A stretch of DNA of 64,000 nt from Conexibacter woesei Iso977N (GCF_000424625.1 NZ_AUKG01000002.1:1178001-1242000); one strand, 5' to 3'. Counted from the first letter of the stretch, positions 2,122-28,817 are shown. The notes: generated by a model from the sequence alone, not told the origin. A program made the numbers and translations.

Positions 2122-2558
2122 GGTTCGCCATCTGCGTTGCGCGGTTCTACGAGGACCTGGCGGAGCGGCTGATCGACGGGGCGGAGGACGTTCTCGCCGA
2201 GAAGTGCGTCATCGAGACGGACGTCGACATTTTTGATGTTCCCGGCGCCTACGAGCTGCCGCTGGCCGCGCAGTTCGCCGCGGAGTCGGGGAAGTACGAC
2301 GGGGTCGTGTGCCTCGGCGCCGTGATCAGGGGCGAGACGACGCACTACGACTACGTCTGCGGCGAGAGCGCCCGCGGGATCCAGGACGTCCAGCTGAGGA
2401 CCGGCGTGCCGTGCTCGTTTGGCGTGTTGACGGTCAACAACAAGGACCAGGCGCTGGCCCGGTCCGGCGGGGACAAGCGCAACTCGGGCGCGCACGCCGC
2501 GGAGGCCGTGCTGGCGCTGCTTGAGATCAAGAGACAACTGGCGCCCACCACCTCCTGA
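2118..2558 (+). CDS. ribH: Lumazine synthase (beta subunit)
   Basis: It condenses the butanone phosphate from RibB with the ribitylamino-pyrimidine to give 6,7-dimethyl-8-ribityllumazine, the substrate of RibE. The 146-residue protein shows the family segments IFDVPGAYELP, GVVCLGAVIRGETTHYDYVC (with the catalytic-region histidine) and FGVLTVNN. The GTG start overlaps the ribBA stop, and the protein starts directly with the first strand (RFAICVARF), so there is no N-terminal tail. These proteins usually form icosahedral or pentameric shells. It is the last clear riboflavin gene of the operon. Confidence 0.96.
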   Translation: MRFAICVARFYEDLAERLIDGAEDVLAEKCVIETDVDIFDVPGAYELPLAAQFAAESGKYDGVVCLGAVIRGETTHYDYVCGESARGIQDVQLRTGVPCSFGVLTVNNKDQALARSGGDKRNSGAHAAEAVLALLEIKRQLAPTTS

Positions 2559-2581
2559 CTCGCGGTACGCTCGGTCCTGCT

Positions 2582-2902
2582 GTGAGCCTCGAAGTCGTCG
2601 CGATCCTCCTGACGCTCCTCGTCCACATCCTGGGCGCGGCCGTCCTCGTGAAGGTCCTCCTGGACGGCGAGCAGATCGACTGGCGCGGAACCCTGTTCCC
2701 CCGCGACGACGACGGCGGCCCACCGAAGTGGGACCCACCGGAGCCAGAGCCGGACCCGTCGGGCGGCAGCCTGCCGCTGCCGGAGTCGTCCCCCTCGCGC
2801 TTCCGCCTCCGCCGCAAGGGCACCCCTTCCTACCCGAAGCCCCCTCGCCGCCCGGCCCATACGCCCGAGCGCACCCCGGACCGCGAACCCGCGTCCCACT
2901 GA
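2582..2902 (+). CDS. Small membrane-anchored proline-rich protein, function unknown
   Basis: This 106-residue protein starts at GTG 2582, 23 bases after ribH, so it may be the tail of the rib operon. Residues about 3-26 (SLEVVAILLTLLVHILGAAVLVKVLL) form one hydrophobic segment, probably a membrane anchor or uncleaved signal. The rest is hydrophilic, rich in proline and in aspartate/glutamate and then in arginine, and looks disordered. I do not recognise a family. Coding is supported by the hydrophobic start and by placement right after ribH. The proline-rich tail is composition-biased, so the exact gene end is less certain. Confidence 0.6.
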   Translation: MSLEVVAILLTLLVHILGAAVLVKVLLDGEQIDWRGTLFPRDDDGGPPKWDPPEPEPDPSGGSLPLPESSPSRFRLRRKGTPSYPKPPRRPAHTPERTPDREPASH

Positions 2903-3071
2903 CCGCCTCCGGCGCATCGATCGACGCGCCTCCTCGCCTGCTGCAGCGCGACCGCTTCTGGCCGCGCTCGGCCGCAGCGTCTCTGCCGACCTGCCGCTAC
3001 CAATCGTGAGTTCCTGCAGCGTGGCGACCGCTCTGCGGTCCTCCGCCGGCGCCGCACATCGCTAGACGCGC

Positions 3072-3827
3072 CTACTCGCTGCGGGTCGCGCCACCGGCCC
3101 TGGCCGCGACCGGCGGCAGCGCCTCCGGCGCGGCGGAGAACATGCGCGCCAGCGTCTCGCCGACGCGTTCGCGGACGACGAGGGCGCTGCGTTGGACGTG
3201 GGCGCGCATGAAGGCGGCGGAGGCGTCGGCGTCGCCGGCCAGGACGAGGTCGATGATCTCGAGGTGCTCGGCGATCGTTGCGCCGATGCGCTCGTCCTCG
3301 GTGAAGTCGTGGATGCGCAGGACGCGGATGCGCTCGTTGGTCGCGCGCAGCATCCGGGTCGCCGTCGCGTTGCCGGAGGCGCCGGCGATGCGCTCGTGGA
3401 AGGACTCGTCGCGGTGGACGAAGTCGGGCGTCCGGAGCGTCTCGGGCGCGGTCCTCCACTGCGCCCGCAAGGCAAGCCAATCATGTTGGACCGCCTCCAG
3501 CAGCTCGCGGTCGCCGCCGGTCGACGCGCGGCGCGCGGTCAGCTCCTCCAGCGCCAGCCGGACGTCGTAGACCTCCTGCATCGTCCGGACGTCCGGCAGC
3601 CGCGGCCGCAGCCCGCCGGCCGGATCCCGGACGAGATGCCCGTCGCCCTCCAGGCGCCGCAGCGCCTCCCGGACCGGTGTGCGCGACGTCGCGTACTCGG
3701 CGGCCAGCTGGACCTCGACCAGCCGCTCGCCCGCGGGCAGCTCGCCGGCCAGCAGGCGATCGCGGATCTCCGTGTAGACCCGCTCGGCCTGCGAGACCGA
3801 CCCGGCCGCGGCGGCGCCGCCGCTCAA
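3072..3827 (-). CDS. GntR-family (FCD subfamily) transcriptional regulator
   Basis: The 251-residue protein has a winged helix-turn-helix at about 12-80 (RDRLLAGELPAGERL and SRTPVREALRRLEGDGHL are GntR signatures). An all-helical FCD ligand-binding domain follows at about 90-235, with FHERIAGASGN and the HLEIIDLVLAGDADASAAFMRAH segment that carries metal/ligand-binding histidines. FCD regulators usually sense small organic acids. I chose TTG 3827 because it overlaps the stop of the upstream DUF1116 gene (TTGA) and no ATG or GTG lies nearby in frame. It probably controls the DUF1116 gene and perhaps the divergent hydrolase-permease pair. Confidence 0.88.
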   Translation of the reverse strand: MSGGAAAAGSVSQAERVYTEIRDRLLAGELPAGERLVEVQLAAEYATSRTPVREALRRLEGDGHLVRDPAGGLRPRLPDVRTMQEVYDVRLALEELTARRASTGGDRELLEAVQHDWLALRAQWRTAPETLRTPDFVHRDESFHERIAGASGNATATRMLRATNERIRVLRIHDFTEDERIGATIAEHLEIIDLVLAGDADASAAFMRAHVQRSALVVRERVGETLARMFSAAPEALPPVAARAGGATRSE

Positions 3828-5056
3828 GCCGGCACCGCCGCCACCCGCGCGTCCAGCTCCTCGATCGCGGCCTCGAACGCCTCGAACGGCGGGTGCGTCA
3901 CGCCGCCGCCGATCTGCCCGACGCCCGGTTCGCGGTGCGCGATCCCGGTGTGGACCGGCGGGCGGATCCCGGTGTCGACGACCAGCCGCGCGTCCACGCC
4001 GAGGATCGCGGGCACGGGCGCGGGCTCGTACAGCCGCAGGTCCGGGTGGTCGGCGGCCGCGATCGTCCGGAAGCGCTGCATCAGCCCGGGCGCGTCGTCG
4101 AAGCTCAGCCCGACCGACGGGGCCGCCAGCGGCGACGCGCTCAGCGCCAGCGCGCCCAACCCGTACACCTCGACGATCGCGCTGTCGCCCAGGTCGGGGT
4201 TCATGTCCTCCAAGGTGTAGGGGTCGATCAGGCGCGCCGGATCCGGGAGCGCGGCGGGACCCACGAACCACTGCGAGCCGGTCCCGCTGAGCTGGATCCC
4301 GACCTCGACGCCGTTGCGCGCGATCACGGTCAGCAGCGACGACCCCGGCACGTCGGCCGCGCACACCATCGCGAGCTTCGCGCTGACCATCGCCAGGTTG
4401 AGGAAGAACTGGCCGTTGTTGAGGATGAACGCCCGGACGTCCTCCGGCAGCCACGGCGCGAGCGCGTCGTGGGCCAGCCTCGACCCCGCTTCGGTGCGGT
4501 GGTGGCACTCGTCGCCGAGCTCCAGCGCGCGGCCCTGGACCTCCAGCAGGTCCAGCGGCCCGTGCTCGCGCAGCGCGCCGGCCAGCGCGGGGCCGAGCAC
4601 GTCGCGCATCCACTCCAGCCGCGCGACGACCTCCGGCCCGTCGGCGCCGTAGCGCAGGACCTTCCCGGAGCCCTCGTTGAGCGGGCACCACGCCTCGCGG
4701 CCGGTCGCCGCGTCGCGCGCGACGAGCACCGGCATCGACGCGGTCACGGCGCCGGACATCGGCCCGACGCCGCCCATGTCGTGGTTGGGCCGGACGTCGA
4801 TCGCGCCCGCGTCGAGCAGGTCCAGCGCCGCAGCCGCGTCGGGGGCGCGGCCCTCGATCGCCAGCGCGACGGCCAGCGCGGTGCGCATCGGCGCGCACAT
4901 CGCGCGCGGGTGGATCGGCGGCCCGGCGTGGCCGACCGCGCCCGCGGCCAGCGCGGGCACGACGTCGCCCGCCGGGCGCACGTCCACCAACAACGGCCGG
5001 GCCGCGGCGAGGGCGGCGACGGCGGGATCGCCTGCGGCATGCAGCTCTGTGTGCAT
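3824..5056 (-). CDS. DUF1116 protein, YlbE/AllG-like
   Basis: The 410-residue protein resembles the DUF1116 family throughout: RPNHDMGGVGPMSGAVTASMPV near the N-terminus, CPLNEGSGKVLRYG, an RAFILNNGQFFLNLAMVSAK segment and a GTGSQWFVGPA segment. Escherichia coli YlbE belongs to this family and acts with FdrA and YlbF in oxamate carbamoyl transfer during anaerobic allantoin use (recalled from the literature). No FdrA- or YlbF-like gene is present here, so the reaction may differ. It is followed by its probable regulator and faces an isochorismatase-type hydrolase and a nucleobase-type permease, which supports a role with carbamoyl or ureide nitrogen compounds (inference). Confidence 0.82.
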   Translation of the reverse strand: MHTELHAAGDPAVAALAAARPLLVDVRPAGDVVPALAAGAVGHAGPPIHPRAMCAPMRTALAVALAIEGRAPDAAAALDLLDAGAIDVRPNHDMGGVGPMSGAVTASMPVLVARDAATGREAWCPLNEGSGKVLRYGADGPEVVARLEWMRDVLGPALAGALREHGPLDLLEVQGRALELGDECHHRTEAGSRLAHDALAPWLPEDVRAFILNNGQFFLNLAMVSAKLAMVCAADVPGSSLLTVIARNGVEVGIQLSGTGSQWFVGPAALPDPARLIDPYTLEDMNPDLGDSAIVEVYGLGALALSASPLAAPSVGLSFDDAPGLMQRFRTIAAADHPDLRLYEPAPVPAILGVDARLVVDTGIRPPVHTGIAHREPGVGQIGGGVTHPPFEAFEAAIEELDARVAAVPA

Positions 5057-5124
5057 GGGGGCAACCTACGGGCGACCGCCGGTCCTGCCCTTGGACACGC
5101 GGGCCAGGATCGCGCCGCCCCGTT

Positions 5125-5147
5125 TGGACCGCTGGCCTTGCGGTCCA
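5125..5147. promoter_or_regulatory. Inverted repeat in divergent intergenic region
   Basis: Eight-base perfect arms (TGGACCGC and GCGGTCCA) flank a seven-base spacer, between the DUF1116 gene and the divergent hydrolase gene. Position and symmetry suit an operator for the GntR regulator, but the spacing is not that of the classic FadR site. A transcript hairpin is the alternative. Confidence 0.4.
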
Positions 5148-5242
5148 TGGGGTTTCCGCCTCGCTGTCCGATGAGCCGGCCACACCGGCCGCGTTAGCTT
5201 CGCGCCGCCGTCGACACCACTGCATACAGCCCCGGAGAGGCC

Positions 5243-5929
5243 ATGACCATCAGCGTTCCCGCTGCGCCCTACGACTTCGAGCTGGACCCCGCGAGCACCG
5301 CGCTCGTCATCATCGACATGCAGCGCGACTTCCTCTACCCAGGCGGCTTCGGCTCGCTCCTGGGCAATGACGTTGCCTTGCTCCAGACCACGATCGCGCC
5401 GCTGCAGCGCGTCCTGGCCGCCGCCCGCGCCGCCGGGATGGCGGTGATCCACACCCGCGAGGGCCATCGCCCGGACCTGACCGACGCGCCGCCGGCCAAG
5501 CTCGCCCGCGGCCGACTGGCGTGCGGGATCGGCGACCCCGGCCCGTTCGGCCGGATCCTCGTCCGCGGCGAGGAGGGCCACGACATCATCGACGAGCTCG
5601 CGCCCGCCGAGGGCGAGCCGGTCCTCGACAAGCCCGGCAAGGGCGCGTTCTACGCCACCGACCTGGAGCTGCTGCTGCGCAACCGCGGGATCACGCGGCT
5701 GGTCGTGACCGGCGTGACGACCGAGGTCTGCGTCCACACGACCGTCCGCGAGGCCAACGACCGCGGGTTCGAGTGCCTCGTCCTGGCCGACTGCGTCGGC
5801 TCGTACTTCCCGGAGTTCCACGAGGTCGGCCTGAAGATGATCGCCGCGCAGGGCGGGATCTTCGGCTGGGTCGCCCCGTCGGCAGCGCTGCTGGAGCAGC
5901 TGCCCGTGCCCACCACCACCATCGCCTAG
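5243..5929 (+). CDS. Isochorismatase-family cysteine hydrolase, biuret amidohydrolase-like
   Basis: The 228-residue protein has the family catalytic triad in the expected spacing: D25 in VIIDMQRDF, K130 in VLDKPGKGAF and C163 in TGVTTEVCVHTT. The order and the GDPGPFGRILVRGEEGHDIIDEL segment resemble biuret amidohydrolases more than true isochorismatases. Such enzymes attack amide bonds of biuret, ureidoacrylate or related compounds through a thioester on the cysteine. A GGAGAGG ribosome-binding site precedes ATG 5243, and the permease gene starts 15 bases after the stop, so substrate uptake and hydrolysis are probably linked. Exact substrate is inference. Confidence 0.85.
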   Translation: MTISVPAAPYDFELDPASTALVIIDMQRDFLYPGGFGSLLGNDVALLQTTIAPLQRVLAAARAAGMAVIHTREGHRPDLTDAPPAKLARGRLACGIGDPGPFGRILVRGEEGHDIIDELAPAEGEPVLDKPGKGAFYATDLELLLRNRGITRLVVTGVTTEVCVHTTVREANDRGFECLVLADCVGSYFPEFHEVGLKMIAAQGGIFGWVAPSAALLEQLPVPTTTIA

Positions 5930-5944
5930 AGCAAGGACTACATC

Positions 5945-7612
5945 ATGAGTAGCGACACCTACGTGTTGCCCGCCTCCGGGGGCAGCGCGTCGCCGCGCCT
6001 GCCCTTCTGGACGCGCGGCGACCTGAACGCCTTCTTCGGCCTCGGCATCAACATGTTGGTCAACGTCCTGGTGCTGGCGGGCCTGGCCGCCGGCGTCGTC
6101 AACATCCCGGCCCACGACGTCTACCGCGTGATCCTCCCGGCGCTCGGCGTCGAGCTGCTGGTCGGCAACGTCTTCTACTTCTACCTCGCGCGCCGCCTGG
6201 CGGCGAAGGAGAACCGGACCGACGTCGCCGCGATGCCCTACGGGCCCAGCGTCCCGCACATGTTCATCGTCACGTTCGTGATCATGTTGCCGACCTACCT
6301 GCAGACCAGGGACGCGGTCAAGGCGTGGGAGGCGGGGCTGGCCTGGGCGTTCATCATCGGCTTGATCATCCTGGTGGGCGCGTTCGTCGGGCCCTACCTG
6401 CGCAAGTACACGCCGCGGGCGGCGTTGTTGGGGACCTTGGCCGGCATCTCCATCACCTTCATCTCGATGCGGCCGGCGTCCCAGATGTGGGAGGCCGCGT
6501 GGATCGCGCTGCCGGTGCTGACGCTCATCCTGATCGGCTTCGTCTCGGGCGTGCGCCTTCCGGGCAACGTGCCGATGGGGATCGTGGCGCTCGGCGCCGG
6601 CACCGCGATCGCCTGGATCGGTGGCTACATGGACGGGGATGCCGTGTCGCACGGGGTCGATCAGATCGCGGTCGGCCTGCCGTCGCTGGACATCGGGCGG
6701 TTGAGCGACGGGCTGTCGTCGATCTCGCCGCTGCTGGCCACGGCGATCCCGTTGGGCATCTACAACTTCATGGAGGCGATGTCGAACGTGGAGAGCGCGG
6801 CGGCCGCGGGCGACAGGTACAACCTGCGCGCGGTGCTGCTGGCCGACGGCACGGGCGCGATCGTCGGCGCGATCGCCGGTTGCCCGTTCCCGCCCGCGGT
6901 GTACATCGGGCAGCCGGGGTGGAAGGAGGCCGGTGGGCGGATCTCGTACTCGCTCGCGACCGGCGTCGTGATCTTCCTGCTGTGCGCGCTCGGGTTCTTC
7001 CCGCTGCTGGCGGCGGTCCTGCCGATCCCGGCGATCGTCCCGATCCTGTTGTTCATCGGGTTGGTCATCGGCGCGCAGTCCTTCCGAGCGGTTCCGAAGG
7101 CCTACTACCCGGCGGTCGTGATCGCGATGGTCCCGAACGTGGCGTCGTGGGGCGTCGGGCAGGTCGACAACGCGTTGGCCGCGGCGGGGACGAGCGCGTC
7201 GCAGGTCGGGTTCGACAAGCTGTCGGCGGCGGGGACGATCTACGGCGGGATGAACACGCTCGGGCAGGGCGCGGTCCTGGTCGGGATGGTCCTGGCGGCG
7301 ATCACGGTGTTCATCGTCGACCGGAAGTTCCTGTGGGCCGCGGCGTTCAGCGCGTTCGGCGGCGTGCTCACGTTGGTGGGGTTGATCCACTCGCCGAAGG
7401 TCCACGTGTTCAGCGGCGAGAGGGTCGCGCTCGGCTACGGGTTCGCGGCGGTCGTCTGCCTGGCGTTCGCGTGGCTGAAGCCGCCGCTGCGTGAGCTGGA
7501 TCCGAACGACCCGGAGGACGTGGCCGGCGCCGCGTTCGAGGGTGGGGCGGAGGAGTACGAGACGGCGCCGGCGGTCAACGGCGCGCGGGCGCCGGAGCCG
7601 GTGGGCGTCTAG
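5945..7612 (+). CDS. NCS2-family (xanthine/uracil type) permease
   Basis: The 555-residue protein has about a dozen hydrophobic segments, starting with FWTRGDLNAFFGLGINMLVN and ending with a soluble acidic tail after about residue 510. The layout matches the AzgA-like branch of nucleobase permeases, and PFPPAVYIGQPGWKE resembles the substrate-site loop between transmembrane segments 9 and 10. It probably imports a purine, pyrimidine or ureide by cation or proton symport. It lies 15 bases downstream of the hydrolase gene, so they form one operon. Its stop overlaps that of the convergent TetR gene. Confidence 0.87.
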   Translation: MSSDTYVLPASGGSASPRLPFWTRGDLNAFFGLGINMLVNVLVLAGLAAGVVNIPAHDVYRVILPALGVELLVGNVFYFYLARRLAAKENRTDVAAMPYGPSVPHMFIVTFVIMLPTYLQTRDAVKAWEAGLAWAFIIGLIILVGAFVGPYLRKYTPRAALLGTLAGISITFISMRPASQMWEAAWIALPVLTLILIGFVSGVRLPGNVPMGIVALGAGTAIAWIGGYMDGDAVSHGVDQIAVGLPSLDIGRLSDGLSSISPLLATAIPLGIYNFMEAMSNVESAAAAGDRYNLRAVLLADGTGAIVGAIAGCPFPPAVYIGQPGWKEAGGRISYSLATGVVIFLLCALGFFPLLAAVLPIPAIVPILLFIGLVIGAQSFRAVPKAYYPAVVIAMVPNVASWGVGQVDNALAAAGTSASQVGFDKLSAAGTIYGGMNTLGQGAVLVGMVLAAITVFIVDRKFLWAAAFSAFGGVLTLVGLIHSPKVHVFSGERVALGYGFAAVVCLAFAWLKPPLRELDPNDPEDVAGAAFEGGAEEYETAPAVNGARAPEPVGV

Positions 7613-17468: not shown

Positions 17469-17480
17469 CTCGCCGGCGAC
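17469..17480. promoter_or_regulatory. LmbU-type palindrome upstream of the LmbU-family gene
   Basis: CTCGCCGGCGAC differs at one base from CTCGCCGGCGAG, the site I recall being reported for lincomycin regulator LmbU. It lies 58 bases before the start of an LmbU-family gene, in a 160-base intergenic region whose first half (17400-17450) is clearly more AT-rich than its surroundings. GC-rich cores like CGCCGGCG occur often in this DNA, so chance is a real alternative. Confidence 0.45.
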
Positions 17481-17537: not shown

Positions 17538-18203
17538 ATGGCATCCACCGACGGGTTGCAGGTCACCCGGGACGAGCGGCAGACGGACGGTGACGGAGGG
17601 GCGTCGTGCCTCCCGAAGCGGCGGCCGATCAGGCCGACCAACACCGGCATGCGCTTCGACCCGTTGCTGCCGTTCGAGTCGTGGAGCGCGATCGGGGCGA
17701 AGATCGGGGCGCACGCGAACGCCAGCGCCTGGTGGCTCGGCGACTGGATCGCCTTCGGTCGCGTGAAGTACGGGCGGCGCTACAAGGAGGCGCTCAGCGT
17801 GACCGGGCTGGACTACCAGACCCTGCGCAACTACGCGGCCGTCGCCCGGCGCTTCGAGCCGTCTCGCCGCCGAGCGGACCTCAGCTTCCAGCACCATGCC
17901 GAGCTCTCGGCGCTGCCCGACGAGCTCCAGGACCGCTGGCTCGCCGCGGCGGTCGCCGGCGGCTGGTCGAAGGCCGAGCTCCGCCGTCGCGTGCGTGAGG
18001 CCGTCGCGCCCACGGCCCGATGCGACGCGCCACGGACGATCCGCCTCTCCGTCCCCGCGAGCCGGGAACAGCGGTGGCGCGACGCGGCCGAGCAGACGCG
18101 CAGCGACTTCGCCGCCTGGGCGGCGAAGATCCTCGACGACGCGGCAGGCGCCGTCCTCGACGAGAGCGGGCCCGGCGAGGAGCCCGGTCGCGTCGTGCTC
18201 TGA
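17538..18203 (+). CDS. LmbU-family transcriptional regulator
   Basis: The 221-residue protein matches the LmbU pattern: LPFESWSAIGAKIGAHANASAWWLGDWIAFG, then the LDYQTLRNYAAVARRFEPSRRR segment, LSFQHHAELSALP and GWSKAELRRRVREA. LmbU activates lincomycin synthesis in Streptomyces and homologues sit in many actinobacterial biosynthetic clusters. A second domain follows at about 155-205 (TIRLSVPASREQRWRDAAEQT). ATG 17538 is the first start; the family core begins near residue 37, so ATG 17649 is a shorter option. It stands just before a seven-gene redox cluster on the same strand and is its likely regulator. Confidence 0.86.
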   Translation: MASTDGLQVTRDERQTDGDGGASCLPKRRPIRPTNTGMRFDPLLPFESWSAIGAKIGAHANASAWWLGDWIAFGRVKYGRRYKEALSVTGLDYQTLRNYAAVARRFEPSRRRADLSFQHHAELSALPDELQDRWLAAAVAGGWSKAELRRRVREAVAPTARCDAPRTIRLSVPASREQRWRDAAEQTRSDFAAWAAKILDDAAGAVLDESGPGEEPGRVVL

Positions 18204-18216
18204 GGGGTCGCTCGAC

Positions 18217-18232
18217 GTCCCGCCGGCGGGAC
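18217..18232. promoter_or_regulatory. Perfect 16-base palindrome before the redox operon
   Basis: GTCCCGCCGGCGGGAC is perfectly symmetric and lies between the LmbU-family gene and the operon. Its centre CGCCGGCG is the same as in the palindrome upstream of the LmbU-family gene. It could be a second operator or a terminator stem without a T-run. Confidence 0.5.
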
Positions 18233-18299
18233 ACGCGATGGCTCCGGAGGCGCTGCGCGCCAACGTTGCGGCCTTCGACGCGTGACCCGCGCAGAATCC

Positions 18300-18329
18300 T
18301 TGACCGTCCGAATCGGCCCGGTCTAGCTT
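18300..18329 (+). promoter_or_regulatory. Promoter of the redox operon
   Basis: TTGACC (18300-18305) and TAGCTT (18324-18329) are 18 bases apart. The -10 box ends eight bases before GTG 18338, and there is no ribosome-binding site between them, so translation of the first gene is predicted to be leaderless. Confidence 0.55.
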
Positions 18330-18337
18330 GATCCGCC

Positions 18338-18949
18338 GTGCCGGCCCAGCTCCGTCCCACCGGGATCCCCGCCTCTGGCGTCTCAGACGACCGCAACGTC
18401 GCGGGCGACGCCGTCGCCCTGACCGTGTTCAGCACCGTCCGGCGCTGGGGCCTGCTCGAGCTCCCGCTGTTCTTCCTCGTCCTGCGCAAGGCCCCCAGGT
18501 CGCTGACGACGCTCAGGCGGCTGTCGTTCATCCAGTCCGCGCGGTGGTCGCTGCTGCGCGAGATCCCCTACAACGGGCCCCCGCAGCCGCGCGTCACGCT
18601 CCGCCATCCGCACCTGTACTTCGAGAGCAACTTCAACGGTGGCTGGGAGGAGTACATCGACGCGTTCTCGTTCCTGCTCACCACGGGGATGTTCGGCTTC
18701 TGGGGGAGCTCCTACGGCTTCCCATGGGCGCTGCCCTCGGCGCCGTTCAAGGCCTACATCCGCGAGCACGCGTACACCGCCAGCCACTACTACTCCGCCT
18801 ATCCGGAGGCCACGGCCACCATCGTCCAGCAGGCCCTGGAGCTCGAACCCAAGGTCAGGGCGCTGTGCGACCAGGCACCCGACCTGTCGCCCGCGGAGTT
18901 CGCGGTCGCGTGGCGCCGGACCCTCAACGAGGTCCAGCAGTGCCTCTGA
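18338..18949 (+). CDS. Protein of unknown function, paralogue of the next gene
   Basis: I do not recognise this 203-residue protein. A hydrophobic stretch at about 40-50 (LLELPLFFLVLRK) is short for a membrane anchor. The part at about 85-175 (LYFESNFNGGWEEYIDAFSF, FWGSSYGFP, FKAYIREHAYTASHYYSAYPEA) runs parallel to the next gene's LLFSATLDGELDSYLDALC, VWGACIGAPG, LKAYLKHNQIDTGLFFCAYPDA. The two are therefore probably paralogues with an alpha/beta fold. The GTG 18338 start suits the promoter. It is the first gene of the operon and overlaps the next gene by ten bases. Confidence 0.75.
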   Translation: MPAQLRPTGIPASGVSDDRNVAGDAVALTVFSTVRRWGLLELPLFFLVLRKAPRSLTTLRRLSFIQSARWSLLREIPYNGPPQPRVTLRHPHLYFESNFNGGWEEYIDAFSFLLTTGMFGFWGSSYGFPWALPSAPFKAYIREHAYTASHYYSAYPEATATIVQQALELEPKVRALCDQAPDLSPAEFAVAWRRTLNEVQQCL

Positions 18950-19482
18950 CGGCCAACACCCTCGGTCAGGTCTACGCGCTCACGGTCCTGACGCCGATCG
19001 CGCCGCACGCCGAGGACGCCCTCCGCGCCACGCTCGCGCGGTTCGAGCACGAGGGCAGCCCGTTCGGCGACCTCGGCCGCACGCATTTCGCACGCTGGGT
19101 CGTGATCGAGGACTTCGTCAACGACCCGTCGCAGCCGACCGAGGACCATCTCGCCTGCCACTACCTCCTGTTCAGCGCAACGCTGGACGGCGAGCTCGAC
19201 TCCTACCTCGACGCGCTCTGCGCCAAGGACTGGGCGGCGGAGGTGTGGGGCGCGTGCATCGGCGCGCCCGGTCCGTCCCAGAGGGCAGCGCTCAAGGCCT
19301 ACCTGAAGCACAACCAGATCGACACCGGGCTCTTCTTCTGCGCCTATCCCGACGCGCGGGTCGAGCATGTCCTGCGGGCACTGGAGCTGCGCCGGTCGTT
19401 CGTCGACTTCGTCGTGGACGCGCAGGCGCTCGAGCCGGAGGCCTTGGCCGCGGCGTTCCGCACGAGGTTCTGCGGGTCATGA
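18940..19482 (+). CDS. Protein of unknown function, possibly ferredoxin-like fold
   Basis: The 180-residue protein starts at GTG 18940 inside the end of the previous gene. It begins VYALTVLTPIAPHAEDALRATLARF, which reads as a beta-alpha unit of a ferredoxin-like domain, followed by THFARWVVIEDF. The second half matches the previous gene (see there). DyP peroxidases also consist of ferredoxin-like domains, so a distant relation to the next gene is conceivable, but no haem ligand motif is seen. Its stop overlaps the DyP start (ATGA), which implies tight coupling of expression. Confidence 0.75.
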   Translation: MPLTANTLGQVYALTVLTPIAPHAEDALRATLARFEHEGSPFGDLGRTHFARWVVIEDFVNDPSQPTEDHLACHYLLFSATLDGELDSYLDALCAKDWAAEVWGACIGAPGPSQRAALKAYLKHNQIDTGLFFCAYPDARVEHVLRALELRRSFVDFVVDAQALEPEALAAAFRTRFCGS

Positions 19483-20882
19483 CGTCGCGCCTCGACTACG
19501 CCGATCTCCAGGGCGACATCCTGCGCGCGCACGGGAACTCGTACGACCGCACGTCCTACGTCTTCGTGGAGCTCCCCGACCCGGGCGCCGGCCGTGCGTG
19601 GCTCAGCCACCTGATCCCGAGGGTGACGAGCGCGGCATGGCGCGGGGCCGAGGGGCCGGACACCGCGCTCAACGTGGCGTTCACCGCCGCGGGACTCACG
19701 GCCCTCGGGGTCCCCGAGCGGGTGCTCGAGACGTGCTCGGAGGAGTTCCTCCAGGGCATGGCGGCCAGAGCCCGCGAGCTGGGCGACGCCGGGCCGAGCG
19801 CCCCGGAGAGGTGGGAGCAGGGCCTCGGCACCGGGGAGGCCCACGTCCTGGTGACCGTCAACGCCAAGGGCGAGCAGGCGCTCACGGCAGCGCTCGAGGA
19901 GCTGATGGCGGGGATCGCCGACCACGGGCTCGCGATCGGCCACCAGCACGACGCGCAGCTGCTCGCAGGCGCCCGCGAGCACTTCGGCTTCGCCGACGGT
20001 GGCGCTCAGCCGGCGATCGAGGACGTCAACGAGGACCAGAAGAACGGCGGCGGCACGCCCGACAGGAAGGGCGGATGGCGCGCGCTGGCGCTCGGCGAGT
20101 TCGTCCTCGGCTTCGAGGACGAGGAGTCGCGCTCGGCGCCCAGGTGGCGCCCGCGACCGATGCCGAGCGCGCCGGCGGATCCGCTCGGCCGCCACGGCAC
20201 GTACATGGTCTGGCGCAAGCTCTACCAGGACGTCGCGCTGTTCCGGCGCACGCTGCGCGATGCCGCCGAGCGCTACCACGCCGGCGACGAGGAGCTGCTG
20301 GCGGCCAAGGTCGTCGGGCGCTGGCGGGACGGCAGCCCGCTGGTCACCGCGCCGGCACGGCCCCAGCCCGGCTTCGATCCCGCGGCTCCCGGCGCCAACG
20401 ACTTCCGCTACGGCGATGACCCTCTAGGCCTTGCGTGCCCGCTCGGCGCGCACATCCGGCGCTCCAACCCACGCGATGCGCTCGACCCGGAGCCCGGGCC
20501 GGACGGCGGCGACGGCAAGCTCACGTTCCGCCATCGGATCATCCGCCGCGGGATGCCCTACGGGGCGCCGCTGCCGCCGGGCGTCCTGGAGGACGACGAG
20601 CAGGACCGCGGCCTCGTCTTCGTCTGCTTCAACGCGAGCATCTCGCGCCAGTTCGAGAGCATCCAGCGGCAGTGGCTGAACGACGGCAACGTGTTCCACG
20701 TCGGTCACGACTCCGACTTCCTGCTCGGGGCCAACGAACGGCTCGGCAAGATGACGGTCCAGGGCGATCCGCCCTTCCTGCTCGAGCCGCAGGCGCCGTT
20801 CGTCGTCACGCGTGGCGGCGAGTACCTCTTCGTGCCGGGGATCACGGGACTGGCGGCGATCGCCGATGGCGTCACCGGCTAG
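19479..20882 (+). CDS. DyP-type haem peroxidase
   Basis: The 467-residue protein has the family start LDYADLQGDILRAHG, the GxxDG motif as G170-F-A-D173-G174 (the aspartate assists peroxide cleavage), and a CPLGAHIRRSNPRD segment with the proximal haem histidine H325 followed by the distal-side arginine region. No twin-arginine signal is seen, so it is likely cytoplasmic, unlike secreted dye-decolouring members. It has an insertion of about 30 charged residues around 185-230. The ATG overlaps the previous stop, and the following P450 gene starts 17 bases before this stop. A partner of the P450 in oxidising a hydrophobic compound is inference. Confidence 0.93.
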   Translation: MTSRLDYADLQGDILRAHGNSYDRTSYVFVELPDPGAGRAWLSHLIPRVTSAAWRGAEGPDTALNVAFTAAGLTALGVPERVLETCSEEFLQGMAARARELGDAGPSAPERWEQGLGTGEAHVLVTVNAKGEQALTAALEELMAGIADHGLAIGHQHDAQLLAGAREHFGFADGGAQPAIEDVNEDQKNGGGTPDRKGGWRALALGEFVLGFEDEESRSAPRWRPRPMPSAPADPLGRHGTYMVWRKLYQDVALFRRTLRDAAERYHAGDEELLAAKVVGRWRDGSPLVTAPARPQPGFDPAAPGANDFRYGDDPLGLACPLGAHIRRSNPRDALDPEPGPDGGDGKLTFRHRIIRRGMPYGAPLPPGVLEDDEQDRGLVFVCFNASISRQFESIQRQWLNDGNVFHVGHDSDFLLGANERLGKMTVQGDPPFLLEPQAPFVVTRGGEYLFVPGITGLAAIADGVTG

Positions 20883-22074
20883 CGGCATCCTCCAGACGGT
20901 CACCGATCACCTGCGCCCGGTGCTCACCGTGCTGCGCCGGGTGCGCCCGATCGTCGTCGTCGGCAACAACGCGATGGTCACGCGCGCCGATGACGTGCGC
21001 GCCGTCCTGGGCGACCACGAGCACTTCACGGTCTCGCACTACGCGCCGAAGATGGCGGCGGCCAGCGGCCCGTTCATCCTCGGGCTCGACGACACCGAGC
21101 TCTACCGCCGCGACCACGCGGCCCTGCGCGCCGCCATCCGCGCCGAGGACGTGCCCGCGCTCGCCGACGCGACGCTTGCTGCCGCCCGGGAGCGCGTTGC
21201 CGCAGCCGGCTCCCGCATCGACGTCGTCTCGCAGCTCGCCGATCCCGTGATCGACGGCGTGATCGCGGCCTACTTCGGGACGCCGGGGCCCGACACGCCG
21301 ACGCAGCTGCGCTGGGCGCGCGACATCTTCCAGGACGTCTTCCTCAACGTCGGCAACGGCGCGGTCGTCCACGACCGCGCGCTCGCGGCGGCGAGCGAGA
21401 TGCGCGAGCACCTCGACCGGCTGATCGCCGAGCGGCGGGCGCAGATCGAGGCGGGCGAGGACGTCGCCGACGACGTGCTGACCCGGCTGCTGCGGACGCC
21501 GCCCGAGGACGGCGGTTTGCACGACATCGCCATCCGCCACAACTTCCTCGGGTTGATCGCCGGCTGGATCCCGACCGTCTCCAAGGCCTTCGCCATGGTC
21601 GTCGAGGAGCTGCTGCGCCGTCCGCGTGAGCTGGCCGGGGCGCAGCGCGCCGCGCGCGACGGCGACCACGAGCTCGTCGCCGCCTACGTGTTCGAGGCGC
21701 TGCGCTTCCGCCCCCAGACGTGGGCGCTGCTGCGGATCTGCGGGACCGAGCAGGTCATCGCGCCGGGGACCCGCCGGGCGACCAGGATCCGCGCGGGCGC
21801 GCGCGTGCTCGTCGCGACGCAGTCGGCGATGTTCGACCCGCGTGCGGTCGAGGCGCCGGGGCAGTTCCGCGTCGACCGCCCCTGGAGCACCTACCTGCAT
21901 TTCGGCGACGGCCTCCACACCTGCTTCGGCCTGCAGATCAACCGTGTCCATCTGCCCGCCCTCGCGACCGCGCTCCTCGAGGGCGCGCCGATCGCGCGGC
22001 TGCCCGGGGCCTCCGGGCGCCTGCGCACCGAGGGTCCCTACCCAACCGCCCTGGGCGTCGCCCTGAGGCCCTGA
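20866..22074 (+). CDS. Cytochrome P450-like protein with atypical I-helix
   Basis: The 402-residue protein has the cysteine haem loop HFGDGLHTCFGLQINR (C353) and ExxR as E277-A-L-R280. The I-helix reads GLIAGWIPTVSKA (229-241): where monooxygenases have an acid before the conserved threonine, it has P236-T237. This weakens the case for ordinary O2 activation and suggests peroxide or hydroperoxide chemistry, as in peroxygenase or CYP74-like enzymes. No ferredoxin or reductase gene lies nearby, which fits. ATG 20866 overlaps the DyP gene by 17 bases. Confidence 0.9.
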   Translation: MASPASGILQTVTDHLRPVLTVLRRVRPIVVVGNNAMVTRADDVRAVLGDHEHFTVSHYAPKMAAASGPFILGLDDTELYRRDHAALRAAIRAEDVPALADATLAAARERVAAAGSRIDVVSQLADPVIDGVIAAYFGTPGPDTPTQLRWARDIFQDVFLNVGNGAVVHDRALAAASEMREHLDRLIAERRAQIEAGEDVADDVLTRLLRTPPEDGGLHDIAIRHNFLGLIAGWIPTVSKAFAMVVEELLRRPRELAGAQRAARDGDHELVAAYVFEALRFRPQTWALLRICGTEQVIAPGTRRATRIRAGARVLVATQSAMFDPRAVEAPGQFRVDRPWSTYLHFGDGLHTCFGLQINRVHLPALATALLEGAPIARLPGASGRLRTEGPYPTALGVALRP

Positions 22075-22102
22075 CCGTCCGCCGTACGGAGAAGAGACGC
22101 CC

Positions 22103-22915
22103 ATGCCGGTCCCGACCCTGATCACGTTCCCGCCGAGTCTCGACAGCGAGTTCAGCCGCTTCCTGCTGACCCACTACGGCATCGAGCGCCACGAGGAGCG
22201 CCACGTGATCTTCATCTCTTCGGCCATCACGCTGGTGCGCGCCCGGACCGTTCGCTTCCCCGTGCTGTTCGACCACACGCTGCGCTTGAACACGGTCCAC
22301 AAGCTGATCGACCACTTCGAGCCGCTCGCGGTCCCCGAGCGGCGGCTCGTGCCGCCCGGCACCGACCTCACGGCGCTGCGCGCGGACTGGAAGCTCTTCC
22401 ACAGCGACCTCAACACCGCGACGACGGTGCTCGCGTACTACCACCTGCTCCCGCACCGGCAGATCATGGTCGAGCCCCTGAGCCAGGGCGCCCCGCCCAT
22501 GGAGGTCCGAGCCGTCGAGCGCGGCTACCCGGTGTTCAAGCTGCTGCTCAGCGCGCTGCTGCGCCTCAGCCCGTCGCGCGCGGAGACGATGCTGACGACG
22601 ATCCGCTCCTGCCTGCAGCGGGTCGACGATCGCCTCGCCGACGGGCGCCGGTACCTGCTCGGCGACCGCTTCACGCTCTCGGACATGGCGTTCGCGATCG
22701 CCTCCGCCCCGATCGTGTGGCCCGACCAGTACGGCGGCGCGGTCCCGGCGCTGGCCGACACGCCGCCGGGGCTGCAAGCGGTGGTCCGCGAGTGCCGTGC
22801 ACGCCCGGCGGGCGAGCTGGCGCTGCGGATCTACCGCGACCACCGGAACGCCGCCCCGGCCGCCTCACCCCAACCAGCCGCGAGCACGGAATCGAGGTCC
22901 CATGGCCTTCACTGA
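22103..22915 (+). CDS. Glutathione S-transferase-like protein
   Basis: The 270-residue protein starts with a thioredoxin-like half: LITFPPSLDSEFSRFLLTHYGIERHEERHVI and the cis-proline region RFPVLFD. A helical half ends with DDRLADGRRYLLGDRFTLSDMAFAIASAPIVWP, the usual GST C-terminal motif. The first-half catalytic Ser/Cys/Tyr is not certain; S13 or S18 is possible. It lies 28 bases after the P450 gene with a GGAGAAGAG ribosome-binding site. It could conjugate or isomerise the product of the upstream oxidations (inference). Its last codons overlap the next gene. Confidence 0.82.
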   Translation: MPVPTLITFPPSLDSEFSRFLLTHYGIERHEERHVIFISSAITLVRARTVRFPVLFDHTLRLNTVHKLIDHFEPLAVPERRLVPPGTDLTALRADWKLFHSDLNTATTVLAYYHLLPHRQIMVEPLSQGAPPMEVRAVERGYPVFKLLLSALLRLSPSRAETMLTTIRSCLQRVDDRLADGRRYLLGDRFTLSDMAFAIASAPIVWPDQYGGAVPALADTPPGLQAVVRECRARPAGELALRIYRDHRNAAPAASPQPAASTESRSHGLH

Positions 22916-24746
22916 CAGCTGCGACGTCTTCCTCGACGTGCACGAGGCGGCGCTCAACCGCGTCGTCCGGCATCTCCGGCGCCAGCGCCCGTCCACGTTC
23001 AACATCGGCAGCCCGGCCCTCGTCGCGAACCCGGGCCGGGCCTGCGCGAAGATCGACGCCCATCCCGTCGTGCTCGCGCGCGGCAACCCGCTGATCGGCC
23101 TCGGCCCCGACCTTCCGGTCGCCGGCACGAGCTTCCTGGTGGAGTACGTCATCCAGCTCGCCGCGCTGGAGGTCGACGTGAGCCAGGGCAACGTCTTCGC
23201 CCTGCCGCCCGAGCTCACGCCGCTCGCCGACCAGAGCATCGGCGCGCACGCTCGGATCTGCGCCGGGCTCGGCTGCCCGCCGAAGGAGCTCCTGGGCATC
23301 GTCAACGAACGCGGCGCCGCGGTGCGCGACCAGATGATGGCGGCGCAGGCGCGCGAGGTGCGGCGTCCGCCGCGTCCGCCGCGCAGGGTGGAGCTGCCCT
23401 TCCGCGAGCTCGAGTGCTTCTGCCTCGACTTCTTCCTGACCGGCGGGGCGCAGTTCGCGGGGCCGTCGGGCGACGAGCACCTGGTCGGGCAGCTGCACGG
23501 CATCGAGATCGTCGACCTGACGCCCACCGGGCTCGAGGACGCCATCGAGTGCTACGCGAGCCTCGTCGTCCGCCTCGGGCTGCTGCCGAGGCTGCGCGTC
23601 CCGCTCATCCGCGCGGTGGCCGGGATCGCGAGGGTCGGGACGCTCACCGTCGAGCCGACGCCGGCGCCGAAGGTGCCGCACAACCCCGCGCTCGAGGACG
23701 ACCAGATCAAGGTGTTCCTCGACGTCGCCGTCACGCCGCCGCCACCGCCGTCGGGCGGTGGGGGAGGCGGTGGTGGTGGAAGCGCGCCGCCGCCCGCGCC
23801 CGGCGTGCCGCGCCCGCGGACGCGGACGGGCCCGCTCGACGCCGTCGCGGCGCTGTCCGAGCGCACCGCGACGGCGCTGTTCGCCGGCGTGCGCGACAAC
23901 TTCGGCTTCGACGAGAACGGCAGCAAGAGCTTCGGGCCGTTCGTCCTGAGCTACGGCGCCGCCGGGCACCTCGAGAACGGCACGCTCGACTTCCGCCCCG
24001 ACGGGTCGATCTCGATCAGCGAGCTGGACCTCAAGTTCACCAAGTTGCGGGCGTGCTTCGGCATCGACATCCCGGAGATCTGCGTCGGCGGGTTCTGCCT
24101 GATCCCGATCCCGTTCGACGGCTGCCTCGTGCGTGCCCCGAAGATCTGCCTGTTCGACGACGACCCGGACCTCGAGTTCTGCCTCGACATCGCGCCGTTC
24201 GTCCGGCTCGAGCTCTCGGCAGCGGTCCGCCCGGTCGTGAAGTACAGCGTCAACCCGAGGCGGACGGCCGGGATGGACGACTGGGACGCGCACGACGCCG
24301 GCGTCCCCAACCACTGGCAGATCTACATCGACCCGCTCACGATCGACGTCGATCTGTTCGACATCGCGGACATCGTCGGCGACCTGCTCGACGACGCGAT
24401 CGACGCGGCGCTCGACACCATCCTGGGCCCCCTGCCCGATTGGGCGAAGGACCTCATCAAGGCGATCCTTGGACCACTCGTCGACCTGGTCCGCGACATC
24501 CTCGACTTCGGCGACGACTTCAGCGAGTGGCTCGCGGATCAGCTCGGCTTCAGCCTCGGCTTCCTCAACACGATCCTGACGCTGCTCAGCGACTACCTGG
24601 CCTCGAGGGCCCCGTTCGAGCTCGCCGACCCGGTCGAGGCGCTGCCCGCGAGCGGCGGGCTCATCCCCGTGCTCATCCCGATCGAGTTCCTCGGCGTCCG
24701 CGTGACCGGCGACGAGCTCGTCGTCGAAGCCGACCTAGGAGACTGA
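22902..24746 (+). CDS. Large two-lobed protein of unknown function with glycine linker
   Basis: I do not recognise this 614-residue protein. There is no signal peptide. An N-terminal lobe (about 1-280; DVFLDVHEAALNRVVRHLRRQRP) and a C-terminal lobe (about 305-614; LSERTATALFAGVRDNFGF) both start with an amphipathic helix followed by alternating, beta-like sequence. A Pro-rich stretch and nine consecutive glycines join them (about 280-300). The C-terminal lobe holds several cysteines and long amphipathic helices (DIVGDLLDDAIDAALDTIL, LIKAILGPLVDLVRDIL). A lipid- or hydrophobe-binding role is conceivable but unproven. ATG 22902 is preceded by GAGGTCC and overlaps the GST-like gene. Confidence 0.75.
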   Translation: MAFTDSCDVFLDVHEAALNRVVRHLRRQRPSTFNIGSPALVANPGRACAKIDAHPVVLARGNPLIGLGPDLPVAGTSFLVEYVIQLAALEVDVSQGNVFALPPELTPLADQSIGAHARICAGLGCPPKELLGIVNERGAAVRDQMMAAQAREVRRPPRPPRRVELPFRELECFCLDFFLTGGAQFAGPSGDEHLVGQLHGIEIVDLTPTGLEDAIECYASLVVRLGLLPRLRVPLIRAVAGIARVGTLTVEPTPAPKVPHNPALEDDQIKVFLDVAVTPPPPPSGGGGGGGGGSAPPPAPGVPRPRTRTGPLDAVAALSERTATALFAGVRDNFGFDENGSKSFGPFVLSYGAAGHLENGTLDFRPDGSISISELDLKFTKLRACFGIDIPEICVGGFCLIPIPFDGCLVRAPKICLFDDDPDLEFCLDIAPFVRLELSAAVRPVVKYSVNPRRTAGMDDWDAHDAGVPNHWQIYIDPLTIDVDLFDIADIVGDLLDDAIDAALDTILGPLPDWAKDLIKAILGPLVDLVRDILDFGDDFSEWLADQLGFSLGFLNTILTLLSDYLASRAPFELADPVEALPASGGLIPVLIPIEFLGVRVTGDELVVEADLGD

Positions 24747-24747
24747 C

Positions 24748-25485
24748 ATGACGCCGATCCTGGACCCGCGGTTCCTGCGCCAGACGCAGTTCGACAGCGC
24801 GGCGCCCGCGGGCACCGCCGTGGTCGTGCACCGGTTCGAGCGCGAGGGTGAGCTCCAGCTGCTGGTGCACCGCGGGAAGACGCCGCTGCGGCGGGCGCGG
24901 ATCAACGTCCGTCCGGAAGCCGGCGACGACCGGCCGGCGGCGTCCGCGCCGGACCTCGGCGGGCCCCGGGCCGCGCCGCCTGCTGCCGCCGCCTTGGACC
25001 TCGCGACGCTGCTGCGACCGGGGGTCCAGGCGCCCGATCCGACCGACCTCGCGCGCGGCGGCTACCTGTCGATCACCTCGTCGGAACCGCTCCCCGAGCA
25101 CCACGTCGTCGTGACCGCAGGCGATGAGGTGGTGCTCGACACCCGCCGGCTCGGGCCGCAATCGGTGTTCGCGGTGACGCTCGTCCGGCCGGGGCGCTAC
25201 CGCCTCGCCAATGCTGTCACGGGCCACGAGGCGGCCGTCGTCGTCACCTACCCCGAGGTCGGCAGGGCGCGCTACCGGCCGCCCGACCCGGTGGAGATCG
25301 AGTGCGGTGCCAAGGGCTTCGGCGCGACCTCCTTCAAGATCTCGCCCGCACAGGGCATCATCTTCCGGCTGGCCACCGAGTCGCGGATCCAGCTCGAGCT
25401 CGTCGAACCCGACGACGGTCCGGCCGCTCGCCGGCCACGGCCGAAGGCCTCGTTCCGGCGCCCCGCGCCGCCGCCGGCGAGCTGA
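24748..25485 (+). CDS. Protein of unknown function, cupredoxin- or beta-sandwich-like
   Basis: This 245-residue protein lies one base after the previous stop, with an AGGAG ribosome-binding site. Residues about 95-175 (EHHVVVTAGDEVVLDTRRLGPQSVFAVTLVRPGRYRLANAVTGHEAAVVVTYP) read like a cupredoxin-type beta-sandwich, though no copper-ligand set is evident. A second small domain (FGATSFKISPAQGIIFRLATESRIQLELVEP) follows and the tail is basic. It is the last gene of the operon, since an ABC transporter gene converges 12 bases later. I cannot assign a function. Confidence 0.72.
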   Translation: MTPILDPRFLRQTQFDSAAPAGTAVVVHRFEREGELQLLVHRGKTPLRRARINVRPEAGDDRPAASAPDLGGPRAAPPAAAALDLATLLRPGVQAPDPTDLARGGYLSITSSEPLPEHHVVVTAGDEVVLDTRRLGPQSVFAVTLVRPGRYRLANAVTGHEAAVVVTYPEVGRARYRPPDPVEIECGAKGFGATSFKISPAQGIIFRLATESRIQLELVEPDDGPAARRPRPKASFRRPAPPPAS

Positions 25486-27281: not shown

Positions 27282-28817
27282 GTGAGTACGGTGCTTGATG
27301 TCATGACTGACGGTGTTGCGCAATGGCAGCGGTTGTTGCTGCCCGCGGCGGTGCTCGCCGAGTCCGACGGCAGACGTACGCCGCGGGACTGGGTGGTCGA
27401 CGCGTTGATGTACGCCTTCGCGGTCGTGTTCGGCGTGGCGATCCTCGGGTCGACGATGTCGTACCGCTCGGACCTGACGATCGGGCTCGACATCGCGTTG
27501 GGGGTCGTGGCGCTCGCCGCGCTGTGGTTCCGGCGGACGCGGCCGATCGAGGTCGCGGTGGTGGCGATCGCGCTGTCGGCGTTCAGCGCGCTGGCCGCGG
27601 CGGCGGCGCTGGCCGCCTGCTTCAACGCGTCGCTGCGGATGAGCAACGGCCGCCGCGTGGCGGCGGTCGGGCTGTTCGGCTGCGTGGGCGCCGCGGTGTC
27701 GGCGTTCTCCTACGGTGCCGCGCACGGCTACGACTGGTCCGGGCTGTTCGTCGGGTTGTTGCTGACGACCGTCGCGATCGGCTGGGGGTTGTTCGCCCGC
27801 GCCCAACGCGAGCTCGTCGCCTCGCTGCACGAACGCGCCGCACGGCTGGAGAACGAACACCGGCTCTACGCCGAGCAGGCCCGCGACGCCGAACGCCGCC
27901 GCATCGCGCGGGAGATGCACGACGTCCTGGCGCACCGCCTGTCGCTGCTGAGCGTGCACGCCGGCGCACTGGAGTTCCGCCCGGACGCGCCGCCAGAGGA
28001 CATCGCGACCGCGGCCTCCATCGTCCGCGCCTCAGCGCACAGCGCGCTGCAGGAGCTTCGCGAGGTCATCGGCGTGCTGCGCGAACCGGACCTCGAAGAG
28101 CCACCCACCGCGTCCCCGCCCGCCGTCACTCCGCCGGCCGCCGCCGCTCCGCCGGCCGCCGCCGCTCCGCCGGCCGCCGCCGCTCCGCCGGCCGCCGCCG
28201 CTCCGCCGGCCGCCGCCGCTCCGCCCGGAACGCCCGCCGCCCCTCCGCCGGCCGCCGCCTCAGCGTCGCCCGCCGCCGCCTCGTCGGCCACCACGCGACT
28301 CGCGGGCGGAGCAGCTCCATCAGCCATCCCCGCTGCGAGGCGGGGTCGTGGGGCGGATGGGACGCGGGCGTGGGCCGGGCCGGGGGAGCGGGCGACGGAT
28401 CCGCCGCAGCCGACGCTTGCCGAGATTCCGGCGTTGGTCGACGAGTCGCGGGCGGCGGGCACGAAGGTGGGGTTGCGGGTCGAGGTCGCCGAGGCTGTAG
28501 AGCTCCCGGCGGCGCTCGGGCGGACCGTCTACCGGATCGTCCAGGAGGGGCTGACCAACGCGCGCAAGCACGCCCCTGCGTCGGCGGTCGAAGTTGTCGT
28601 CGAAGGCGAGCAAGGCAAGGTGGTTGTGTCGGTCGTGAGTCGTCGACCTGTAGGGGTCGTCGCGGCGCCGGGCGGCGCGGCGCTGCCCGGCGCGGGCGCG
28701 GGGCTGATCGGGCTGCGGGAGCGGGTCGCGATCGCGGGTGGCGCGCTGGAGTGCGGGCCGGACGCGACGGGCGACTTCGTCCTGCGCGCGGTCCTGCCGT
28801 GGGAGCCGGCGGCGTGA
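27282..28817 (+). CDS. Sensor histidine kinase (NarL/DesK type) with Pro-Ala repeat linker
   Basis: The 511-residue protein has about five membrane segments in residues 30-165, then a dimerisation domain with the phosphoacceptor in REMHDVLAHRLSLLSVH. The ATP-binding domain near the C-terminus has QEGLTNARKHAP (N box) and GAGLIGLRERVAIAGG (G box). Between them lies a long linker of Ala and Pro encoded by an 18-base tandem repeat, which is unusual inside a kinase. GTG 27282 is the chosen start; ATG 27303 is possible. The stop overlaps the response regulator start. Confidence 0.93.
   Translation: MSTVLDVMTDGVAQWQRLLLPAAVLAESDGRRTPRDWVVDALMYAFAVVFGVAILGSTMSYRSDLTIGLDIALGVVALAALWFRRTRPIEVAVVAIALSAFSALAAAAALAACFNASLRMSNGRRVAAVGLFGCVGAAVSAFSYGAAHGYDWSGLFVGLLLTTVAIGWGLFARAQRELVASLHERAARLENEHRLYAEQARDAERRRIAREMHDVLAHRLSLLSVHAGALEFRPDAPPEDIATAASIVRASAHSALQELREVIGVLREPDLEEPPTASPPAVTPPAAAAPPAAAAPPAAAAPPAAAAPPAAAAPPGTPAAPPPAAASASPAAASSATTRLAGGAAPSAIPAARRGRGADGTRAWAGPGERATDPPQPTLAEIPALVDESRAAGTKVGLRVEVAEAVELPAALGRTVYRIVQEGLTNARKHAPASAVEVVVEGEQGKVVVSVVSRRPVGVVAAPGGAALPGAGAGLIGLRERVAIAGGALECGPDATGDFVLRAVLPWEPAA
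28131..28220. repeat. 18-base tandem repeat inside the kinase gene
   Basis: Five consecutive perfect copies of CCGCCGGCCGCCGCCGCT encode repeated Pro-Pro-Ala-Ala-Ala-Ala. Degenerate copies continue to about 28260. Such a repeat could gain or lose units without shifting the frame. Confidence 0.9.

Follow-up and report, generated by a model that had tools for sequence, protein, structure and literature searches.

A conserved pairing of a DyP-type peroxidase and a cytochrome P450 with two small, predicted barrel-fold proteins in Conexibacter woesei and other bacteria

Why should a bacterium place two haem enzymes, a DyP-type peroxidase and a cytochrome P450, side by side in an operon that contains no ferredoxin or reductase gene? 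The question is raised by a locus at positions 17538-25485 of a 64,000-nucleotide stretch of the Conexibacter woesei Iso977N genome (GCF_000424625.1 NZ_AUKG01000002.1:1178001-1242000; hereafter the window). The original prediction for this DNA described seven tightly packed genes 3' of a gene for an LmbU-family regulator, without electron-transfer genes, and treated the seven as one LmbU-controlled unit. The packing and the lack of ferredoxin and reductase genes were borne out. The unit as a whole was not: only two small proteins (smA and smB), the DyP and the P450 are conserved as a set, and the operon is a conserved core with lineage-specific additions.

All eight open reading frames (ORFs) of the locus were confirmed on the plus strand, encoding LmbU, smA, smB, the DyP, the P450, a GST-like protein and two further proteins, p614 and p245. 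From smA to p245 the junctions are, in order, overlaps of 10, 4 and 17 nt, a 28-nt gap, a 14-nt overlap and a 1-nt gap. The GC content of all eight genes is 0.92-0.96 at codon position 3 versus 0.46-0.57 at position 2, with the mirror-image pattern in a long antisense ORF; thus, the eight ORFs are coding and did not arise by chance. The core consists of smA (18338..18949, 203 aa) and smB (18940..19482, 180 aa), both small proteins with a predicted DABB/ABM fold, followed by the DyP (19479..20882, 467 aa) and the P450 (20866..22074, 402 aa).

Plasmid and genome searches that started from smB came first, and P450-centred searches then gave the main result. The former placed the small proteins beside DyP genes in Granulicella, Rhizobium and Actinomycetota. 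A genome from another genus of the same family (G023) encodes smA-smB-DyP-P450 in the order seen in the window, at 52-60% identity. Relatives of smA that are 32-63% identical lie upstream of the DyP gene in loci with separate genes, and both smA and smB match the profile built for the family. A DyP gene adjoins this P450 clade in 22 genomes from at least five phyla (Actinomycetota, Chloroflexota, Armatimonadota, Bacteroidota and Pseudomonadota), comprising nine Solirubrobacteraceae (the window included), one Ktedonobacter, three Armatimonadota, one Bacteroidota and eight Pseudomonadota. A scan of 85k genomes based on P450 similarity alone returned 19 loci. After leaving out L043 (a remote P450) and L041 (a degenerate gene on a short contig), the DyP is adjacent in 15 of the 17 informative loci; the two exceptions are L030, with a weak di-haem peroxidase match upstream, and L034, where no partner was seen. 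Among 232 genomes surveyed at the level of the order, ten encode the P450 at E <1e-60, and all ten place it next to a haem peroxidase (a DyP in nine, a COX-like protein in one).

Exactly two sm domains, counted by family profile or, for later loci, by tblastn, are encoded in every DyP-P450 locus with enough upstream DNA (the DNA of L032 and L035 begins within the DyP gene or close to it). The pair occurs as two genes, as one two-domain gene (L016, L031, L036, L037, L040 and L042) or as two domains within one longer polypeptide. In this last form, Novosphingobium (L020) and Pararhizobium (L024) encode P450, sm, a transmembrane (TM) segment, sm and DyP as one protein of ~1,430 residues. These fusions are strong evidence for a shared task, and the unfused members may form a comparable physical complex. 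DyP loci without the P450 encode one small protein (Rhizobiaceae) or two (Granulicella). At two such loci (L011:6420-9424 and L013:7998-11041) the sm and DyP genes are followed by a gene for a catalase-family protein (L011, PF00199) or a catalase-like protein with no profile match (L013), another haem enzyme for which hydroperoxides could in principle be substrates. The search for the gene set that the original prediction had suggested therefore ended in a real, conserved association of sm-sm-DyP-P450, small proteins included, far outside close strains. Searches of the open-access literature gave nothing relevant on DyP-P450 fusions or operons, and this haem-enzyme tandem is widespread and apparently undescribed.

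The family assignments made for the two haem enzymes hold. The window DyP matches TIGR01413 above cut-off (E 9e-32), as well as PF21105 and PF20628, and the Asp173 of the GxxDG motif, the proximal His325 and the distal Arg390 are conserved in 26/26 sequences. The closest solved chains, 8re2 and 8re3, are homologous to it over the full length and have the same catalytic Asp, Arg and His. Unlike the DyPs described to our knowledge, which are solitary or in encapsulins, the gene of the window DyP is conserved together with the sm pair and the P450 gene.

The P450 matches PF00067 (E 8e-9), with EALR as its ExxR motif and FGDGLHTCFG as its Cys loop. The I-helix, already singled out as unusual, reads AGWIPT: Pro occupies the position of the O2-activating acid, the Thr is kept, and the enzyme does not have the acid-alcohol pair of a conventional O2-activating P450. 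Pro is found at this position in 18 of the 22 DyP-linked P450s, 17 of which keep the Thr. The Armatimonadota enzymes have D-T, the Bacteroidota member E-P and that of Skermanella P-Q. P450s beside RoxA-like or rhizobial COX-like partners have E-T, and the solirubrobacterial COX-linked P450 (L064) has Pro; a rule that Pro occurs only with DyP was dropped because of L064 and the Armatimonadota. The CYP152 I-helix carries Arg-Pro in place of acid-Thr. These fatty-acid peroxygenases resemble the window P450 in having an I-helix Pro at the oxygen-activation site and in the peroxide-driven reaction proposed here, but the window enzyme has Ile-Pro-Thr with no Arg, the Pro replacing the acid and the Thr being kept. 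The earlier suggestion that the P450 is driven by peroxide rather than by a reductase looks supported.

The two small proteins are, as first described, related to each other (24% identity), and they have no trusted family in Pfam, NCBIfam or PHROGs. PF03992 (ABM) gave no match at E up to 1 among nine sm proteins. An AlphaFold2 model of the tandem-domain relative from L042 has a mean predicted local distance difference test score (pLDDT) of 73, with ~80-95 through most of each domain and low values in the linker. The sole Foldseek match below 1e-3 to this model, which is also its top VIA match (Z 13.2, 196 residues across both domains, root-mean-square deviation 3.7), is the ABM/SchA-like polyketide protein WhiE-ORFI; behind it come ABM oxygenases and cyclases, together with further dimeric ferredoxin-like proteins. 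The sm family is predicted to adopt the ferredoxin-like alpha+beta barrel of the ABM/DABB superfamily. On these matches, a single pseudo-dimeric barrel made up of smA and smB is probable. Structure prediction, proposed earlier for all the unassigned proteins, thus gave a fold for sm and failed for p614 (pLDDT 38, single sequence). WhiE-ORFI (9lmn), an ABM/SchA-CurD-like DABB protein, shares the predicted barrel with the sm tandem, but at ~11% identity; the sm proteins have no Pfam match and do not lie beside polyketide genes. ABM proteins include cofactor-free oxygenases and also have a documented non-catalytic, chaperone-like role (PMC6689052). Several tandem sm proteins have hydrophobic, TM-like segments between their two domains, which would suit a membrane-near, hydrophobic substrate.

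The P450 clade does not always have a DyP as its partner. In R. etli, S. medicae and the solirubrobacterium G436 its neighbour is a COX-like peroxidase; in Bradyrhizobium and Methylobacterium a RoxA-like di-haem protein is encoded next to it or close by, with a regulator gene intervening in Methylobacterium. Among the characterised relatives of the COX-like and RoxA-like partners are oxygenases of fatty acids and of polyisoprene (PMC4496055). The strongest reason to think that the P450 acts on the products of such oxygenases is that a single P450 clade occurs with three haem families unrelated to one another. Some of these loci deserve mention in their own right. In G436 (L064:5829-8688) the gene for a COX-like animal haem peroxidase is followed directly by that for the P450, and the pair is a candidate for a bacterial equivalent of the COX-P450 cascade. 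Two rhizobial plasmids carry pairs of the P450 and a COX-like peroxidase (L019:6851-9753, with a PGHS match at E 5e-57, and L023:6857-9774). On a Bradyrhizobium plasmid (L017:4745-8104) a RoxA-like di-haem protein precedes the P450, and an oleate hydratase gene lies ~3 kb upstream.

The remaining genes of the window operon are less widely shared. The GST-like protein (22103..22915, 270 aa) matches PF13410 (GST_C_2) at 27.3 bits, with a cut-off of 24.9 (E 4e-6), as expected from the original prediction, and its N-terminal part has no match to a thioredoxin-like domain profile. It is a recurrent optional partner, since a GST-like gene also lies directly 3' of the P450 in the alphaproteobacterial loci L033 (36% identity) and L038 (34%). 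MFS transporters are often encoded 3' of the P450 in other Solirubrobacteraceae, and nearby in L036. Of the two last genes, p614 (22902..24746, 614 aa) was seen at the window locus only: the 232 genomes of the order gave just short, weak matches over its Pro/Gly linker region, plasmids gave no match and the PDB none that is credible. By impression it may be a lipid-binding protein with two lobes. The other, p245 (24748..25485, 245 aa), has no relative in any other core locus and a weak, sub-threshold resemblance to CarboxypepD_reg. Neither has a trusted family in Pfam, NCBIfam or PHROGs. A conserved seven-gene unit was rejected on the distribution of these two genes and of LmbU.

LmbU itself (17538..18203) is a true family member (NF038070, 193 bits versus a cut-off of 125, E 3.5e-57) and a possible local regulator outside the conserved core. 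It is absent from the other core loci and occurs in 4 of 61 relatives, the organism's own genome included; in none of the others is it beside a DyP. In a genome of the same genus, an LmbU homologue (L046:1492-2184) lies between cation-efflux-like and metallophosphatase-like genes, with no evident biosynthetic cluster. The gap between LmbU and smA contains a perfect 16-bp palindrome, GTCCCGCCGGCGGGAC (18217..18232), which includes CGCCGGCG, reported as the LmbU site (PMC6510168); a second CGCCGGCG lies upstream of LmbU at 17471-17478. Since this 8-mer has 42 copies in the window, and the chance of at least one is ~0.10 and 0.08 for the two gaps, the two are candidate LmbU sites and suggestive only; LmbU control was not accepted as established from them. 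The flanks of the locus read as rsmD-, coaD-, ABC-transporter- and two-component-like genes, and none of eight large neighbouring ORFs scanned in the window gave a match of polyketide synthase (PKS) or nonribosomal peptide synthetase (NRPS) type. Elsewhere in the window, an imperfect 18-bp tandem repeat of 8.8 copies (28116-28280) encodes a Pro/Ala-rich linker in a sensor-kinase-like ORF, and a 282-bp tandem repeat of ~3 copies (60913-61815) lies within a large ORF close to the window end.

What could the tandem do? We favour, at slightly less than even confidence, a two-step system in which the DyP makes a peroxide of a hydrophobic substrate and the reductase-free P450 rearranges it, with the sm pair as carrier. 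The DyP would oxidize an unsaturated hydrophobic substrate, with O2 or H2O2, to a peroxide intermediate. Such a first step is chemically possible, as a fungal DyP oxidizes beta-carotene in an O2-dependent manner with no H2O2 added (PMC5567573). The sm domains, as one pseudo-dimeric barrel, could bind or position the reactive intermediate and tie the DyP to the P450. Without a reductase, the P450 would then cleave the O-O bond of the intermediate itself and rearrange it, as an isomerase, dehydratase or intramolecular hydroxylase, by analogy with thromboxane synthase, prostacyclin synthase, allene oxide synthase and the P450 partners of fungal dioxygenases. Departures from the acid-alcohol pair, together with self-sufficiency, are also described for the thromboxane and prostacyclin synthases and for the fungal partners (PMC13049297). 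In the window genome and two alphaproteobacteria, the GST-like enzyme may conjugate or isomerize the electrophilic product.

Several points weigh against this scheme. The usual DyP reaction is a one-electron oxidation with H2O2, and we know of no DyP that acts as a lipid dioxygenase. The O2-activating pair was not lost in all members, given the Asp-Thr of the Armatimonadota P450s, and a reductase encoded elsewhere in the genome could serve the P450. The co-variation of DyP and P450 distances (r 0.90), which speaks for the scheme, partly reflects shared species history. Finally, the surroundings of the core loci show no recurrent fatty-acid or terpenoid gene.

The best surviving alternative, which we regard as unlikely but a serious contender, is H2O2-driven tailoring of an aromatic or polyketide-like compound: the DyP would carry out radical oxidation or coupling, the P450 would act as a peroxygenase and the sm pair as an ABM-type cofactor-free oxygenase or cyclase. 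The resemblance of the sm tandem model to WhiE-ORFI, and then to ABM oxygenases and cyclases, favours such a role, and LmbU-family proteins can regulate antibiotic clusters. However, the DABB fold is common to many functions, no PKS, NRPS or other biosynthetic core was found among the annotated or scanned neighbours of the core loci, and the other partners of the P450 clade are COX-like and RoxA-like proteins, not polyketide enzymes. Less likely again is a catabolic or attack system: a hydrophobe from the environment (terpenoid, carotenoid, rubber or lignin fragments) would be cleaved or activated by the DyP, COX-like or RoxA-like partner, and the resulting fragments processed by the P450. The RoxA-like partners, carotenoid cleavage by DyPs (PMC5567573) and the origin of one host strain from oil-contaminated soil are consistent with it. 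On the other side, the window proteins have no obvious export signal on reading, no catabolic genes recur across the core loci, and the barrel pair and fusions suit the handling of one unstable intermediate. A peroxide or iron/haem stress module, with the DyP removing peroxide or handling haem iron and the P450 ancillary, is the least probable reading, for although the G023 core (L012) has a gene for a DtxR-like iron regulator on its upstream side and ABC genes for siderophore uptake on its downstream side (L012:10676-11356 and 1589-6495), and a TonB receptor, Fur and KatG are encoded near the Granulicella copy, iron genes do not recur in other core loci, and the P450 fusion and the swap with COX-like and RoxA-like partners would be left unexplained.

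Prostaglandins, thromboxanes and the oxylipin signals of fungi are all products of haem oxygenase-P450 pairs. By analogy, the peroxide-rearranging tandem that we favour most likely works like these COX-P450 and dioxygenase (DOX)-P450 cascades. In the fungal DOX-P450 fusions (Ppo, linoleate diol and allene oxide synthases) and the COX-thromboxane/prostacyclin cascade, a haem peroxidase-type oxygenase is paired with or fused to a reductase-free P450 that departs from the acid-alcohol pair, as proposed here. The haem oxygenase and P450 of the DOX-P450 enzymes are joined or adjacent; so are the two haem enzymes described here, adjacent in the window and fused in L020 and L024. However, the first enzyme is a DyP, from a superfamily unrelated to the peroxidase-cyclooxygenases, and COX-like proteins occur only in the partner-swapped relatives; the tandem is therefore not a member of the COX-P450 or DOX-P450 families. 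It further differs in its two extra DABB domains, in the P450-sm-sm-DyP order and in being prokaryotic. A bacterial parallel is the oleate-diol synthase of P. aeruginosa (PA2077/PA2078, FadCcp, RoxA-like di-haem), in which two tandem haem proteins make and isomerize a fatty-acid hydroperoxide. Both of those are relatives of di-haem cytochrome c peroxidases, whereas the tandem studied here usually begins with a DyP and has a P450 as its second enzyme; RoxA-like proteins, as partners in Bradyrhizobium and Methylobacterium, are common to that system and this P450 clade.

A bolder form of the scheme, which we think rather improbable, is an independently evolved bacterial cascade of prostaglandin type, in which the DyP, acting as a genuine oxygenase, would form a hydroperoxide of lipid or isoprenoid type, and the barrel pair would channel it to a reductase-free P450 whose clade is reused by COX-like, RoxA-like and DyP partners. 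If true, a third peroxidase superfamily would have given rise to a prostaglandin-like cascade. The fungal DOX-P450 fusion has been proposed to have a bacterial ancestor (PMC13049297), and an identified one was not found in the literature searched; the P450 clade with its COX-like, RoxA-like or DyP partners and its fused forms is direct test material for that ancestry. The sm proteins, a family absent from Pfam, are an addition to the known protein families, and the tandem would provide a defined partner for the DyP enzymes, few of which have a known physiological substrate.

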